NCBI RefSeq assembly: GCF_000147335.1 | Contig: NC_014501.1 | Location: 248,001-312,000, forward strand | Source of the DNA: Gloeothece verrucosa PCC 7822 | Lineage (GTDB): Bacteria; Cyanobacteriota; Cyanobacteriia; Cyanobacteriales; Microcystaceae | Direction of reading: 5' to 3' | DNA: 64,000 nt | In this document: in pieces, positions 5,743 through 50,259 of the stretch | Numbering within the stretch: position 1 is the stretch's first letter | Layout: each line of letters starts with the position of its first letter | Program-made: the position numbers and the translations under genes | Notes under the pieces: model-generated | Seen by the model: only the letters and a program-made list of their open reading frames with translations | What the model was told of the DNA's origin: nothing | Databases searched by the model: none

Positions 5743-6199
5743 AAGCGCCCTACACCCTGAAGGGTGAGGCTACACGAACGAAGCCCGCCTGCGCGGGCTA
5801 TATAATAAATTGTGTGAGATAATTCTGATTTGTTTTTTATTTTTCCTCTTGTTGATCTAGTTGTTGACGATAATTTTCTATTTCATTTAAAACTTCTTCA
5901 AATAAAGGATTATTTTCATACATTCCGGCAAATTTTAACCAAGGATGTTCAGATTTTATTGCTGGATGAGTTGATGTTGAAGGCTGAGAAAGCGATCGCA
6001 TAATTAAAAAATCGACAAATAGATCAACTTCCTGCACCAGCGCTTCTGGTAATTGCTGAATTTTGGCAATGGTTTTCTGATGTAAACTCATCTGCTTATA
6101 CTTCAATATTAAAATATTAGCCCGCGCAGGCGGGCTTTGTTCGTATAGCCCCACCCTTCAGGGTGTGGGATCTTGAGGGTGTAGAATCTTCAGGGCGCT
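5743..6199. repeat. Long inverted repeats enclosing a small gene (MITE-like cassette)
   Basis: The segment 5752-5804 reappears inverted at 6115-6166 with few differences (key piece AGCCCGCCTGCGCGGGCT, itself a hairpin). An outer pair, AGCGCCCT (5743-5750) and AGGGCGCT (6192-6199), extends the symmetry. Between the arms lies only one small DUF2281-like gene. The right outer arm overlaps the last codons of the neighbouring STAND gene. This looks like a non-autonomous mobile cassette or a gene captured between two copies of one palindromic repeat. Confidence 0.7.
5837..6091 (-). CDS. DUF2281-like small protein (antitoxin-type)
   Basis: 84 aa beginning MSLHQKTIAKIQQLPEALVQ, followed by EVDLFVDFLIMRS and a C-terminal segment with HPWLKFAGMYENNPLFEEVL. 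This matches the layout of DUF2281-type proteins, which in cyanobacteria often act as antitoxins beside a PIN or RelE-like toxin. The frame continues upstream to 6154 into the inverted-repeat arm, but the start at 6091 fits the family. No toxin gene is adjacent, so it is either an orphan antitoxin or cargo of the flanking inverted repeats. A HIP1 octamer lies inside it (5992-5999). Confidence 0.7.
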   Translation of the reverse strand: MSLHQKTIAKIQQLPEALVQEVDLFVDFLIMRSLSQPSTSTHPAIKSEHPWLKFAGMYENNPLFEEVLNEIENYRQQLDQQEEK

Positions 6200-26379: not shown

Positions 26380-27522
26380 ATGAAAGCCAGGTATCAATTT
26401 CGCGTTTACCCAACAAAAGACCAACAGATAGCCATCGCTAGACTGTTTGGTTGTTGTCGGGTAGTCTGGAATGATGCCTTGAGTTTTTGTCAAGAGAAAT
26501 ATAAGCAAGGAGAGAAAAAACCCAGCTATGGCGAACTGTCTAAAAGGTTAACTCAACTTAAGAAGAGTAGCGAAAAAGAATGGTTAGGGGAAGTGTCTTC
26601 TATCCCCTTGCAGCAATCATTAAAAGATTTAGAACAAGCTTATTCTAACTTTTTTAAATCTTGCAAAGGAGAGAGGAAAGGGAAAAAGATAAAGCCTCCT
26701 AAATTTAAGAAGCGTAAATCGAGACAGTCAGCCAAGTTTACCGATAACGGGTTTAAGGTAAGACAACACAATGTCTATCTCCCAAAGATAGGTAAACTAC
26801 GAATTGTTTGGACTAGACCCCTGCCTTCTCCCCCCTCATCAGTCACGCTGATTAAAGATAGTGCTGACAGGTATTTCTTGAGTTTTGTAGTTGAGATACA
26901 TCCTGAAAAGTTGCCCGACAATGAGCAATCTATTGGAATTGACTTGGGTATTATTGACTTCGCCACTTTTAGCAATGGTGAAAAGGTCAAAGCCCCTAAG
27001 CCCTTAAAGAAAAGATTAAAGAGGCTCAAGAAGCTACAAAGGAAATTTTCTAGAAAGAAAAAAGGTAGTAAACGGCGTGAAGTAGCTCGTAAAAAAGTAG
27101 CTAAACTCCATGCCAAAATAGCTGACACTAGAAAAGATTTTCTTCATAAACTATCCACTAGAGTTGTGCGTGAAAATCAAACTATCGCTCTAGAAGATTT
27201 AAATACAAGTGGGTTAATGAAAAACCGTAAACTCGCCCGAGCCATATCAGATTTGGGATGGTGTACCTTCCGAGATATGTTAACAGCTAAATCGGAAAAA
27301 TACGGGCGTGATTTACGGATAATTGACCGATGGGAGCCAACATCACAAAAATGCTCGTGTTGTGGGAAAAAGGGAGGCAAAAAAGAACTTTATGTTAGAG
27401 AGTGGCTTTGTCTTTTCTGTGGCACATGGCATGACAGGGATGTGAATGCAGCTAAAAACATTTTAGTCGCGGGTGGACTATCCGAGACTTTAAACGGAGT
27501 GCGACTCGTTCAGTCGAAATAA
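26380..27522 (+). CDS. tnpB: RNA-guided nuclease TnpB (exon 1 read into intron)
   Basis: Read without splicing it gives 380 aa, but only the 373 codons to 27498 are true exon; the rest is the start of a group II intron. All catalytic parts are present: RuvC acidic residues at Asp188 (GIDLGI), Glu272 (ALEDLN) and Asp354 (HDRDVN), and the zinc finger CSCCG...CLFCG. The N-terminal OrfB helix-turn-helix region begins MKARYQFRVYPTKDQQ. TnpB cuts DNA guided by omega RNA from the element's 3' end. Exon 2 (29969-30079) supplies the last 36 residues, giving 409 aa after splicing. Confidence 0.9.
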   Translation: MKARYQFRVYPTKDQQIAIARLFGCCRVVWNDALSFCQEKYKQGEKKPSYGELSKRLTQLKKSSEKEWLGEVSSIPLQQSLKDLEQAYSNFFKSCKGERKGKKIKPPKFKKRKSRQSAKFTDNGFKVRQHNVYLPKIGKLRIVWTRPLPSPPSSVTLIKDSADRYFLSFVVEIHPEKLPDNEQSIGIDLGIIDFATFSNGEKVKAPKPLKKRLKRLKKLQRKFSRKKKGSKRREVARKKVAKLHAKIADTRKDFLHKLSTRVVRENQTIALEDLNTSGLMKNRKLARAISDLGWCTFRDMLTAKSEKYGRDLRIIDRWEPTSQKCSCCGKKGGKKELYVREWLCLFCGTWHDRDVNAAKNILVAGGLSETLNGVRLVQSK

Positions 27523-28141
27523 GCAGTAATACTTAGGGATGACTGACATCTGATGAGTAACCATGAGGTTGAACAAGCACTTAAATCCTCATCAGGTGAT
27601 AACTTAATATCCGTAAAGGTGATGGTAGCCATCTGAGCCAAAAGCTAAGAAAGATGGTTGAAACTGCAAAGAATCACTAAATACCTAGTCCTTTCCCGTA
27701 GATGTTACGGTGACAGTATCGCCCCTAGTCATTTAAGACTGGTAAACTTATAGGCTAAAGCGGGGCGAAAAGGCAGTAACACCAAGAACGATGGTGAATC
27801 CTGTCTAACATCTAGTCATGGTTAGGAATACGAACTCTTGCCTGAAACGTCGTTAGAGTCACCCAGCCTACTCGTTCTATCGGCTGGAAACAAAAGTTAA
27901 AGGTCTAAAATGCCAGCAGATTTCCGTTTCTGAACTGGGAACATCCATATAGACTCGGCGTAGAAAGAGAACCTAAAGCTAGCAGCAACGGATATTAGGA
28001 ACGAAGTAAACCTTATAAATCTCTTGGAAATAGGTCGATTTATCCAAGTAGTAACCAACGCAAGATTTATAAGGGAAAGATGGTGTAAAAAGCCAAAGCC
28101 TGTTTGTAATAAATAGGATATGCTGACGTACACCCGATTAC

Positions 28142-29962
28142 ATGGAATATATAGTCGCTAATAGGAGCGAATATGTTATGAACACGGTCACAAAACCGAT
28201 GTATGAATGGAAGGACATCAATTGGCGTAAAGTCGAAAGATGTATCTTTAAACTCCAAAAACGAATATATAGAGCCAGTCAACAGGGCAATGTCAGAGTA
28301 GTTCACAAATTACAACGGCTACTCTTAAATAGCTGGTACGCTAAATTAATAGCAGTTCGACGAGTTACTCAAGATAATTCGGGCAAGAAAACCGCAGGAA
28401 TTGACGGAGTTAAATCCCTATCTCCTAAACAAAGAATGGCACTTGCTGAAGGGTTAAAATTGGGTCACAAAAGTCAACCAACTCGTCGAGTATGGATTCC
28501 AAAAGCTGGAACAGATGAAAAACGACCATTAGGAATTCCAACAATGTATGAACGTGCTTTACAAGCAGTAGTAAAACTAATGTTAGAACCCGAATGGGAG
28601 GCAAAGTTTGAACCGAATTCTTATGGTTTCCGACCAGCACGTTCAGCCCATGATGCAATCGAAGCAATATTTAATGTAATTAGTCATAAGGCAAAATATG
28701 TCTTAGATGCTGACATTTCAAAATGCTTTGATAAAATCAATCATGATAGACTTCTGGCGAAATTAGAAACTTACCCAAAGCTAAGACGACAAATCAAAGC
28801 TTGGTTAAAGGCAGGAGTAATGGAGGGAAAATCCCTATTTCCAACCGACGAAGGTACACCACAGGGCGGTGTTCTTAGCCCTTTATTAGCCAATATAGCC
28901 TTGCACGGAATGGAAATAAAAGTTAAGCAATACGCGGAAACTTTGAAAGGGAAGAAACAAAGGAATCGAAAAGCATTATCATTAATTAGATATGCAGACG
29001 ACTTTGTAATAATCCATGAAAATCTAGAGGTCATTCTAAAATGCCAGGAACTAATAAGGGACTGGTTAGCAGAAATGGGACTATAACTCAAACCTAGCAA
29101 AACTAAAATTACCCATACTCTTTATGAGTATAACGGGAATTTAGGATTCAATTTCCTTGGATTTAATATCCGACAATACCCAATCAAGGGAATACATAAT
29201 AGCGGAAAAAATACCAACGGAAAAAGACTAGGTTTTAAAACCCTTATCAAACCCGCCAAAGAAAAAGTAAAACTCCACAATTATAAGATAGGTAATTTAA
29301 TCCAAAAGCATAAAACGCAACCGCAAAGTGCCTTAATCAAGCAATTAAATACGGTAATAAAAGGATGGACTAATTATTACAAAACAGTAATATGTAAAGA
29401 CACCTTTTATAAATGCGATAATATCACCTATCAACAACTTAGAGCGTGGAGTCATTACAGACACCCAAGAAAAAATAAGCACTGGATAGTCAGAAAATAC
29501 TGGCAATCCGAAAAGACAAGAAACTGGGTGTTTAAAACAAAAGACGGATTAACCCTGAATACACACGGTGAAACTGAAAAAGTCAAATACGTCAAGGTAC
29601 AGGGAGTAAGAAGTCCTTACGACGGGGATATGATCTATTGGAGTAGTCGATTAGGGAAACACCCTGAAATGCCAGCAGAAAAAGCAAATCTATTAAAGAA
29701 ACAAAGAGGACGCTGTGCATATTGTGGATTACATTTCCGAGATGGAGATTTAATAGAAACCGACCACATTATCCCCAAGTTCAAGGGGGGTAAAAACTCA
29801 AAACAAAATAAGCAGTTACTCCATCGACATTGCCACGACCTGAAAACTGCACAGGATATGACGGGTACTCATGATAAGAGCCGTGTAATTGAGGAGCGGA
29901 GTGAAACTAAAGTCTCACGCTCCGTTCTGAAGACGAGTCAGGGGGGCGACCCTCTGGCTTAG
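28142..29962 (+). pseudogene. Group II intron-encoded RT/maturase/HNH protein with one in-frame stop
   Basis: One frame of 606 codons interrupted only by TAA at 29084-29086, where related proteins have a sense codon (probably GAA, in a region reading LAEMGL...LKPSKTK). RT domain: IPTMYERALQ, EGTPQGGVLSPLL, catalytic RYADDFVIIH. After the stop come the rest of RT and the maturase domain (FNFLGFNIRQY, VIKGWTNYYK), then an HNH endonuclease (CAYCG...ETDHIIPKFKGG...HRHCHD). An ATG at 28178 is an alternative start. The frame runs into domains V and VI. Unless the stop is suppressed, mobility would require another maturase. Confidence 0.88.
29894..29927 (+). ncRNA. Group II intron domain V
   Basis: 34 bases: GAGCGGAGTG, then AAACTAAAGT, then CTCACGCTCCGTTC. 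GAGCGGAGTG pairs with the 3' half, and the catalytic AGC triad sits at the base. Exact 34-base length is typical of domain V. Confidence 0.85.
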
Positions 29963-29968
29963 TTTAAT

Positions 29969-30079
29969 CGCGATGTGAAAGCATCTTCAGGTAAAAGAAA
30001 GAGGAAGTGTAAGACTACCTCGGTAGCAATTTCTGTTGAAGCGCCCACCACCTTTAAACCGGTTCAGTTGAGCTTGTGA
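29969..30079 (+). CDS. tnpB: tnpB exon 2
   Basis: 36 codons plus TGA, continuing the tnpB frame after intron removal (RDVKASSGKRKRKCK, then TTSVAISVEAPTTFKPVQLS). The tail resembles cyanobacterial TnpB C-termini, which often end in a VEAPTH...VQLSL pattern. Without splicing these residues are lost. The omega RNA of TnpB elements usually overlaps this part of the gene. Confidence 0.85.
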   Translation, partial: RDVKASSGKRKRKCKTTSVAISVEAPTTFKPVQLSL

Positions 30080-30172
30080 AAGAGGAATCGCCCCTTCAGG
30101 TCGGCGAGGATGTCAACAGTGTATTCCTAGTAATGGCTACAGACCAATGACTCATGACTTTCTTTAACCCGG

Positions 30173-42626: not shown

Positions 42627-44072
42627 ATGATTCAAGTTATAGAGCGCAATAATAAGCAAACACAACGGTTAATGGAGAGGGCAAAAGAAAGAATAGAAGA
42701 TTTTAAGCGGCTTCAGACAGCCGGATTAATTTGTAAGAGTGGGGATTTTTTTCCGTCGGTTCATTATCCGCCTATTACCATGTATGCTCCTACCACCGAA
42801 GAGGAGTTATTTAGGACTTATACTAGCCCTAGTGATGGATTATTTGATGTTTATGTTCATATACCTTTCTGTCGTCGCCATTGCACTTTCTGCCATTATC
42901 CGGTGATGTTGGGAGAACAAACTGCTGAGAAAGATCATTATCTTCAAGCATTAGAAAAAGAAATGGATATTTATATGAAGCGTCTCGGCGGGGATAAAAT
43001 TCGAGCGAGATCGATTTTGATCGGAGGAGGTACGCCCACTTATTTGAGTTTGGCGCAAATGAGACGCTTTTTAGATTTTTTTGTGGAACGGGTTGATCTG
43101 TCCACTTGTAAGCAATTTAATTATGATGTTGATCCGGTCACTTTGATCGGTTCTGAAGGGATAGAAAGGCTAAAAATGATGCGCTCTTATGGCGTTGATC
43201 GTGTCACCATTGGCATACAATCTTTTAATGAGTCGGTACTCAAAAAAATGGGGCGGCATCATGGGGCAAAAGAAGCGATAGAATCGATCCGAAATTGTCA
43301 AGATTTAGGGTTTCAGGTAAATATTGAATTTATTTTTGGCTATTGGGGGCAAACTCTAGAAAACTGGATCGAGGTAATCGAAGAAGCGGTTTCTTTAGAC
43401 ACCGAAGAGATACAGTTATATCGACTGAAAGTAGAAGCTTATGGAGATTATCAGGGCGCGATTAAAAAAGTCCGAGAAATTCGCCCGCAAGAAATCCCAA
43501 CTGTTGAAGAAACTTTGATGATGAAACAGGTAGCCATCGATATTCTTAATGAACATGGTTATTATGAAAATCTGCGGCGAGTCTTTAGCAAAAAGCCTGA
43601 ACATTACTCTCATTATGCTGATAATCAATGCTGTGGATTGTTGGATCAAATTGGCTTAGGATTAACGGCTTTTAGTAGTCTTCGAGACAGGTTTGTGCTA
43701 AATACTCAAAATATGGATGAATATTATGCTCTCATTGAGTCCGGCAAATTACCTCTGAACCGAGGGATAGTCAGAAGTTCCGAAGAACAAATGAGATGGG
43801 CGGTAGTTCTTCCTCTAAAAAATCGCCGGGTATGGAAGAGTTATTTTAAACAAATTACTGGGGCTGATCTTAATGAGGTGTTCGGGGAAAAAATTAAGCA
43901 ATTAAAAACTTTTGGTTTACTGTTTGAAAATGAGGAGAAAATTGAATTGACGAAATTAGGGGCTTTTTTTGCTGATGAAGTCGCCCAACAATTTCATCAT
44001 CCTGACTATGTTCCTTTTCCTCAAGATGCTTATTTTCAAGGGGCATTATATCCCTATAGAAGTTGTGTGTGA
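42627..44072 (+). CDS. HemW/HutW-like radical SAM protein
   Basis: 481 aa. The cluster motif is CRRHCTFC at about 87-94 in VYVHIPFCRRHCTFCHYPV, the form of the oxygen-independent coproporphyrinogen oxidase/HemW superfamily. SAM-binding GGGTPTYLS and GVDRVTIGIQSFNE follow. The C-terminal winged part (KLGAFFADEVAQQFHH) resembles HemW-type C-domains. Relatives include heme chaperones, heme-opening enzymes and class C radical SAM methyltransferases; which applies is unclear. The stop (44070-44072) lies inside an adjoining IS200/IS605 terminus, so the natural C-terminus may have been altered. AGAGAGGAA lies 10 bases before the start. Confidence 0.85.
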   Translation: MIQVIERNNKQTQRLMERAKERIEDFKRLQTAGLICKSGDFFPSVHYPPITMYAPTTEEELFRTYTSPSDGLFDVYVHIPFCRRHCTFCHYPVMLGEQTAEKDHYLQALEKEMDIYMKRLGGDKIRARSILIGGGTPTYLSLAQMRRFLDFFVERVDLSTCKQFNYDVDPVTLIGSEGIERLKMMRSYGVDRVTIGIQSFNESVLKKMGRHHGAKEAIESIRNCQDLGFQVNIEFIFGYWGQTLENWIEVIEEAVSLDTEEIQLYRLKVEAYGDYQGAIKKVREIRPQEIPTVEETLMMKQVAIDILNEHGYYENLRRVFSKKPEHYSHYADNQCCGLLDQIGLGLTAFSSLRDRFVLNTQNMDEYYALIESGKLPLNRGIVRSSEEQMRWAVVLPLKNRRVWKSYFKQITGADLNEVFGEKIKQLKTFGLLFENEEKIELTKLGAFFADEVAQQFHHPDYVPFPQDAYFQGALYPYRSCV

Positions 44073-50186: not shown

Positions 50187-50259
50187 TGGAGGTAAGCGGA
50201 CTCGAACCGCTGACATCCTGCTTGCAAAGCAGGCGCTCTACCGACTGAGCTATACCCCC
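50187..50259 (-). tRNA. tRNA-Ala (anticodon UGC)
   Basis: 73 bases on the minus strand: acceptor GGGGGTA pairs with TACCTCC (one G-U), D arm GCTCAGTCGGTAGAGC, anticodon stem CCTGC/GCAGG with loop TTTGCAA (anticodon TGC), T arm with GGTTCGAGTCC and discriminator A. CCA is not encoded. Confidence 0.97.

Follow-up and report, generated by a model that had tools for sequence, protein, structure and literature searches.

A group II intron within tnpB and the presumed guide RNA segment of Gloeothece verrucosa PCC 7822

Described systems and the interrupted tnpB gene

In a cyanobacterium, group II introns are already known to occupy a conserved site within an insertion sequence (IS) of the IS200 family, the F4 introns in ISEL1 of Thermosynechococcus elongatus being the described case (PMC2882425). 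The locus considered here resembles this case and lies in Gloeothece verrucosa PCC 7822, in a stretch of 64,000 nucleotides (nt) at positions 248,001 to 312,000 of contig NC_014501.1 (C1:248001-312000, hereafter the window), within a genome of 7.84 Mb in seven contigs. There, the gene for TnpB, the nuclease of an IS200/IS605-type element, is divided by a group II intron that probably lies inside the segment predicted to form omegaRNA, the guide RNA of this nuclease. The new point is the splitting of a presumed omegaRNA by an intron; no group II intron inside tnpB or omegaRNA was found described in the literature, with most subscription journals lying outside the search. In the following, L-numbers designate loci and G-numbers the genomes compared, G000 being the genome of the window.

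The accessible part of the T. elongatus account does not discuss tnpB or a guide RNA (PMC2882425). In G449, where 28 domain V matches were detected, the introns of L296 and L299, which we infer to be these F4 introns, stand 162 nt before a right end, GATGTCAA. They differ from the window intron in that their 3' exon opens within the RuvC-III codons for NAARNI and not at GGA^CGC, and they appear to lack an open reading frame, a possible 5' border in L316 lying some 850 nt upstream. A tblastn search with one query gave no tnpB match on the 5' side of L296 and L299, so that the element looks like a remnant. In G449, L315 and L316 hold two introns in stretches with a tnpB 3' end and a right end and no tnpB 5' part, and are apparently guide RNA remnants carrying an intron.

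A self-splicing intron is also joined to an IS605-type element in the IStrons (PMC4227781, PMC3073962). These are group I introns with the IS element in the 3' part of the intron, whereas in the window a group II intron lies inside a tnpB element; a group I intron containing an IS element is thus not what is found at this locus. Work has reportedly been done on a conflict between IStron splicing and guide RNA. The ISDra2 element provides a TnpB homologue in which RNA scaffold and gene tail overlap (PMC10097598), and differs in having no intron and in a scaffold-to-right-end distance unlike that of the cyanobacterial set. The cyanobacterial CL-type introns (PMC8919778) show a likeness at the level of parts, namely the reverse transcriptase (RT), maturase and HNH domains, from which the window copy departs by a stopped maturase frame and a domain V loop that is not of the GNRA type.

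The tnpB frame opens at 26380 and, when unspliced, stops at 27520-27522, encoding 373 residues followed by VRLVQSK. It matches the NCBIfam model guided_TnpB above the cut-off, as well as three TnpB-type Pfam domains (Table 1). Within exon 1, GIDLGI (residue 186), ALEDLN (270) and HDRDVNAA (351) are presumably RuvC motifs, while SQKCSCCG (322) and WLCLFCG (342) are taken to be zinc-finger motifs, so that the two cysteine pairs of the finger are both in exon 1. The RuvC, zinc-finger and helix-turn-helix (HTH) features of an IS200/IS605-type TnpB are all present, with the motifs complete without exon 2, and a right-end hairpin and the conserved terminal motif of such an element are found at 30088-30116. 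When 27498 is joined to 29969, a frame of 409 open codons results, with the protein end QLSL and the intron between codons 373 and 374. This agrees with the first-pass annotation of the window, which had described, at exactly these coordinates, a mobile nuclease gene carrying a second mobile element between codons and had noted that its precise excision restores the frame.

Uninterrupted relatives read through the junction, mostly as ...AAACGGA^CGYGGAGG..., at 32 loci compared at the DNA level, which were kept for having an exon 1 tail match, a right-end motif and no N (those dropped at this filter include L047, L068, L115, L117 and L145). At the protein level, where the relatives are those with the searched motif among 120 proteins listed, most carry a tail like that of exon 2 and a few (e.g., P0047, P0076 and P0082) end early or diverge. 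The canonical C-terminus proposed earlier stands in so far as the tail aligns with these relatives, but exon 2 also holds 27 nt (9 codons; 29973-29999) missing from all 32 aligned uninterrupted relatives. As they are placed after GGA^CGCG, the additional nt leave the splice site unmoved, and some of them fold into a short hairpin, GAUGU..GCAUC, once the RNA is joined. An interpretation of the first exon 2 codons, RDVKASS, as a copy of the RDVNAA of another tnpB was dropped, the MAFFT alignment putting the 27 nt after CGCG.

The intron starts with GTGCGACTCGTT at 27499 and finishes with ...GCTTAGTTTAAT at 29968, where the Rfam model also ends (Intron_gpII, RF00029; match at 29892-29968, 43 bits against a gathering threshold of 40). 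Its ends, GTGCG...TTTAAT, carry the GUGYG 5' end and AY 3' end of group II introns, and the 77 nt of domains V and VI fold with a z-score of -4.66, the upper stem of domain V staying open in that fold. Close relatives of the intron, with 69-75% identity along the part that matches, are housed in other tnpB genes. Siblings at L167 (same genome), L169, L170 and L260 occupy tnpB in phase 1, after the Y or K of R-[LI]-[YK]-P, and the joining of their exons yields the conserved TnpB N-terminus. Their 3' ends were set by this join, with the Rfam match 6 nt short, and lie 6 nt past GGCTTAG as in the window; since the sibling joins fix the same end position, the 3' border of the window intron is supported independently. 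The between-codon position, to which meaning had been attached in the first-pass annotation, is no sign of phase selection, because the sibling introns are in phase 1.

Pairing between the intron-binding site (IBS1) in exon 1 and the exon-binding site (EBS1) in the intron extends over 7 base pairs in the window. Over ten introns, taken at 6 nt each, pairs form at 55/60 positions, where shuffling gives 35.2 on average and 0/20000 shuffles as high, two EBS1 registers having been allowed after a one-register pass that gave 44/60 (6/2000 shuffles as high). Pairing is 5/6 in L170, L168 and L073, 4/6 in L259 and 6/6 in the remaining six. The borders, the domain V and VI elements and this exon pairing are therefore as first annotated. 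The intron probably arrived by retrohoming via EBS1/IBS1 pairing, like its relatives at other tnpB sites.

Conserved RNA structure on both sides of the intron

In ISDra2 TnpB, residues 376-408 are reported to be disordered, and their deletion leaves cleavage with slightly lower protein stability, while the stretch coding for them overlaps the essential omegaRNA scaffold, from -109 to -10 (PMC10097598). It has also been reported that TnpB processes its own mRNA into omegaRNA (PMC10278001). When compared by phmmer to ISDra2 TnpB (8bf8), window residues 5-373 align on residues 7-384, with residue 373 corresponding to ISDra2 residue 384. As this position falls inside the dispensable 376-408 stretch, the exon 2 tail can likely be spared by the protein, and the unspliced product would be expected, by this analogy, to hold a complete TnpB core. 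The earlier proposal that TnpB can be made thanks to splicing loses its ground here, given that exon 1 already has the RuvC and zinc-finger motifs and that the ISDra2 tail is dispensable. It is on the whole probable that the intron lies inside a predicted omegaRNA segment and that its removal rejoins the frame together with the guide scaffold, the scaffold likely being what the nuclease needs. An unspliced transcript would then give the TnpB core without a usable guide, and in a spliced transcript both the reading frame and the scaffold would be rejoined.

RNA structure is conserved both upstream and downstream of the intron. It was studied in an alignment (A1) that combines 24 relatives, taken over their 3' segment, with the window segment after joining, 25 sequences in all; the eight of the 32 relatives that have long insertions (L045, L061, L102, L106, L122, L140, L152 and L153) were omitted. 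The RNAalifold consensus on A1 has 33 pairs, 18 of them with changes on both sides. In hairpin P1, which belongs to exon 1, 200/200 cells are paired; both-side changes are seen in 31 cells, where shuffling gives 10.9 on average (0/500 as high) and slid versions give 1-7. The hairpin lies in coding sequence, but selection on codons would not by itself be expected to preserve pairing across CG/GC/GU changes, and the constraint is read as acting on the RNA. Over codons 359-373, nine codons specify invariant residues and five of these are the same in all of eight sequences, compared to 15/161 earlier in the gene, and a set of four helices pairs in 95.4% of cells as against 87.7% when shuffled. The conserved RNA at the gene end is presumably, by analogy, the omegaRNA scaffold, with the guide predicted directly after the right end, which closes 148 nt past the intron.

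In the consensus fold, the strand GA^CG, part of a nearly invariant GGACG, lies astride the junction itself. With its predicted partner, as GACG-UGUC, 99/100 cells are paired, and with the alternative partner, as GACG-GCGTC, 149/160 cells pair over 32 relatives; covariation of a junction-spanning helix was shown for neither partner among the aligned relatives. A candidate stem UCCG/CGGA was rejected, having 87% of cells paired and zero both-side changes.

Table 1. Features of the interrupted tnpB element in window coordinates.
Feature	Position	Strand	Basis or remark
tnpB exon 1, 373 codons	26380..27498	+	Pfam HTH_OrfB_IS605, OrfB_IS605, Cas12f1-like_TNB; NCBIfam
Hairpin P1, presumed omegaRNA, in exon 1	27466..27488	+	covariation
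IBS1 AAACGGA, final 7 nt of exon 1	27492..27498	+	pairs with 27923-27929
GA of strand GA^CG astride the junction (CG = 29969-29970)	27497..27498	+	consensus fold; predicted partner UGUC 30111-30114
Group II intron, 2470 nt, GTGCG...TTTAAT	27499..29968	+	Rfam RF00029; borders from siblings in other tnpB genes
EBS1 TCCGTTT, intron domain I	27923..27929	+	7 base pairs with IBS1
Intron-encoded protein frame (RVT_N, RVT_1, GIIM maturase, HNH)	28142..29962	+	in-frame TAA 29084-29086; two pieces searched apart
Domain V, 34 nt, AGC triad, UAAA loop, one A.C mismatch	29894..29927	+	fold and loop survey
Domain VI stem, bulged A 8 nt before 3' splice site	29931..29965	+	fold
tnpB exon 2, 36 codons and stop TGA 30077-30079	29969..30079	+	alignment with uninterrupted relatives
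Hairpin CTACC..GGTAG, presumed omegaRNA, in exon 2	30015..30026	+	4/5 pairs change on both sides (25 sequences)
Right-end hairpin TCGCC..GGCGA	30088..30107	+	fold of joined segment; covaries in relatives
Element right end (IS200/IS605-type), GATGTCAA	30109..30116	+	in all 32 relatives (selection criterion there)

Splicing competence and competing explanations

Splicing competence had been assumed in the first-pass annotation, which overlooked the in-frame TAA at 29084, the UAAA loop and A.C mismatch of domain V and the 27 extra nt of exon 2. The single stop in the maturase frame occurs at the end of the RT match and ahead of the maturase domain, and the intact RT and maturase of a mobile form are lacking. 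Three relatives have a sense codon at this position. The ratio of nonsynonymous to synonymous substitution rates (dN/dS) of the maturase against these three relatives is 0.09-0.19 before the stop and 0.16-0.19 after it, values that average both branches and in which dS is near saturation; such ratios on both sides suggest that the stop may be young. The domain V loop is of the GNRA type in 115/121 loci surveyed (15 from the same genome, 9 + 60 from the family, 28 from G449 and 9 from the order, with repeated copies included, so that the loci are not independent), and in the window it is UAAA, with one A.C mismatch in the upper stem. The other loci outside the GNRA type are L254 and L271 (AAAA) and L164, L259 and L276 (poor parse). 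A zeta-zeta' contact of the GNRA loop of domain V has been described, with some lineages being without the GAAA motif (PMC3494683). The missing GNRA loop bears on activity more than on group II identity, as it is not defining in every lineage.

Given both defects, unaided splicing of the window intron is doubtful. The altered loop may weaken splicing and, because the intron's own frame is stopped, splicing would now be reliant on a maturase acting in trans. In T. elongatus, maturases are on record that serve introns other than their own (PMC2882425), and a review reports that most bacterial group II intron copies are truncated or inactivated (PMC4424553).

Several observations weigh against a guide scaffold that is rejoined by splicing. 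The stopped maturase frame and the UAAA loop speak against efficient splicing, and the intact maturases of the same genome that were compared are at most 65% (RT part) and at most 51% (maturase/HNH part) identical to that of the window. The GA^CG strand is too invariant for covariation to prove its pairing, and the alternative partner GCGTC fails the shuffle test (45/50 against 44.3), with one pair broken in the window. Five of the 33 consensus pairs are broken by the window, the joint highest count of the 25 sequences (L048 also breaks 5), two being mismatches in the small exon 2 helix; the remaining three fall in the right-end hairpin, whose register is shifted in the MAFFT alignment. In addition, 148 nt separate the junction from the right end (121 if the additional 27 are discounted). 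A scaffold of 116 nt, which would stop just short of the junction, is enough in ISDra2, so that by length alone the scaffold may lie wholly within exon 2.

A good share of probability, short of an even chance, is held by the possibility that the intron is a recent fossil that no longer splices, with tnpB permanently severed from its guide RNA and decaying. The maturase stop and the low identity of the other own-genome maturases are in line with this, as are the breaks in the consensus pairs of the presumed scaffold, the domain V loop and mismatch (L168, alike in that part, retains GAAA) and the loss of part of the maturase frame in the closest own-genome sibling, L167. However, both exons are open, all pairs of hairpin P1 are kept, the right-end hairpin forms when taken in its own register, and the dN/dS values, though dS is near saturation, suggest that the stop is recent. 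An active intron whose splicing serves the full-length TnpB protein is improbable: the frame is restored exactly and the tail resembles that of relatives, yet exon 1 has all the catalytic motifs, the ISDra2 counterpart of the tail is dispensable (PMC10097598) and the constraint beside the junction is at the RNA level. It is hardly credible that splicing takes place 27 nt downstream, in the manner of a Bacillus cereus intron with a 3' extension named by a title in the reference list of PMC4227781. Such splicing would take away the 27 nt by which exon 2 exceeds the aligned relatives and bring the protein to their length, but the native GGACGCG is given as GGA^CGCG by the standard site, with the extra nt only afterwards, and the sibling introns finish at the standard site.

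Group II introns and tnpB in this genome and its relatives

The genome of the window contains 15 domain V matches, ten of them in the wider group of the window intron. Five of these ten interrupt tnpB, namely the window intron, L167 (near codon 10), L165 (mid-gene, KIAA^QIVSDN), L164 (C-terminal) and L159. By its sequence, the last belongs to a different tnpB type (VLT^RPQKLKF), and its joined peptide is uninterrupted in L078/L175 (one place, G012). For L164, the tnpB assignment rests on the 5' side and the downstream right end, and an uninterrupted relative of its joined tail was sought and none was found. The other five interrupt two ParA-like genes, a DJ-1/PfpI-like gene, an NblA-like gene and one unassigned gene, these gene names being suggested by the joined peptides. 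No tnpB was detected at the remaining five loci of the 15 (L194-L198) by tblastn with a panel of 19. There are 27 tnpB matches in the genome, an estimated 0.4% or so of its length.

In three of the five tnpB introns of this genome, the distance from intron end to right end is similar (window, 148 nt; L164, 142; L159, 160), and elsewhere it is 130 nt in L168 (G045), besides the two G449 introns described above. The right end of L159 was located by a wider motif, which also matches L175 at +233 and misses the window and L164, and that of L168 by eye. The exact motif AGGATGTCA occurs 60-250 nt past the intron in 4/121 loci (window, L164, L296 and L299) and at none in a control window from +500 to +690, to which 120 of the 121 loci reach. 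With so few cases, some of them picked in hindsight, the 130-162 nt cluster is no more than a lead. Locus L168 (G045:C45) itself holds a close relative of the window intron before an IS605-type right end; no tnpB was detected beside it, and its 5' exon has no assignment. Further copies of AGGATGTCA are present in the window at 44070 on the minus strand, possibly the end of a second tnpB-type element, and at 50211, where the motif overlaps a tRNA and is probably due to chance.

Outside this genome, tnpB was found beside the intron in 3/60 domain V loci of the family, on the 3' side only in L222, on the 5' side only and by a tandem intron in L243, and weakly in L244. These 60 loci were picked from the upper part of the list, and 18 of the stretches are short at contig ends. 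On these counts, tnpB is a recurrent but minority site in the family, and the 5/15 proportion applies to the window genome only. A search of 386 genomes of the phylum for the exon 1/intron junction pattern, allowing one mismatch, gave three matches, one of them the window; the others, L285 and L286, show no tnpB in their surroundings, seem to be chance matches and were rejected as same-site insertions. The exact insertion site is so far a singleton in these genomes. Among plasmids, 50 records match, none covering 80% of the query, and among the 25 listed the match is to the intron part in 24 and to tnpB in one.

Some of the other introns merit mention on their own account. Loci L162 (2178-4651) and L163, on G000:C6 and G000:C4, respectively, are 2474-nt introns in ParA-like genes at the same P-loop site (GGVA^KTT), which looks like homing between replicons (small contigs). 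The introns L166 (1661-3926) and L161 (1726-4432), both on G000:C1, lie between codons of NblA-like and DJ-1/PfpI-like genes of host type. In L259 (G136:C67:40161-44824), two copies of a related intron stand in tandem, both with the same score against the window intron, and one copy appears to have entered the other at its end. Apart from the introns, Rfam CRISPR-DR28 matches occur in the window at 5777-5800 (+, 35.7 bits) and 6118-6141 (-, 36.6 bits), with a gathering threshold of 35.

The repeated placement of introns in tnpB and the near-equal distance of several of them to the right end suggest that introns find a refuge in the RNA zone of tnpB, as an insertion there leaves the protein unharmed. 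Beyond the preferred reading, in which removal of the window intron rejoins the guide scaffold with the reading frame, introns may repeatedly settle in the omegaRNA zone in such a way that the nuclease is whole and the guide exists only after splicing, a maturase thus controlling the nuclease. On this view, EBS1 (UCCGUUU) pairs with the very GGA that belongs to the junction strand of the guide scaffold, and splicing and guide folding would compete for it. This more general proposal is speculative and rather unlikely. If the TnpB guide does need the removal of an intron, its output would be a controllable step apart from that of the nuclease, and the junction described here would constitute a natural test of where omegaRNA begins.

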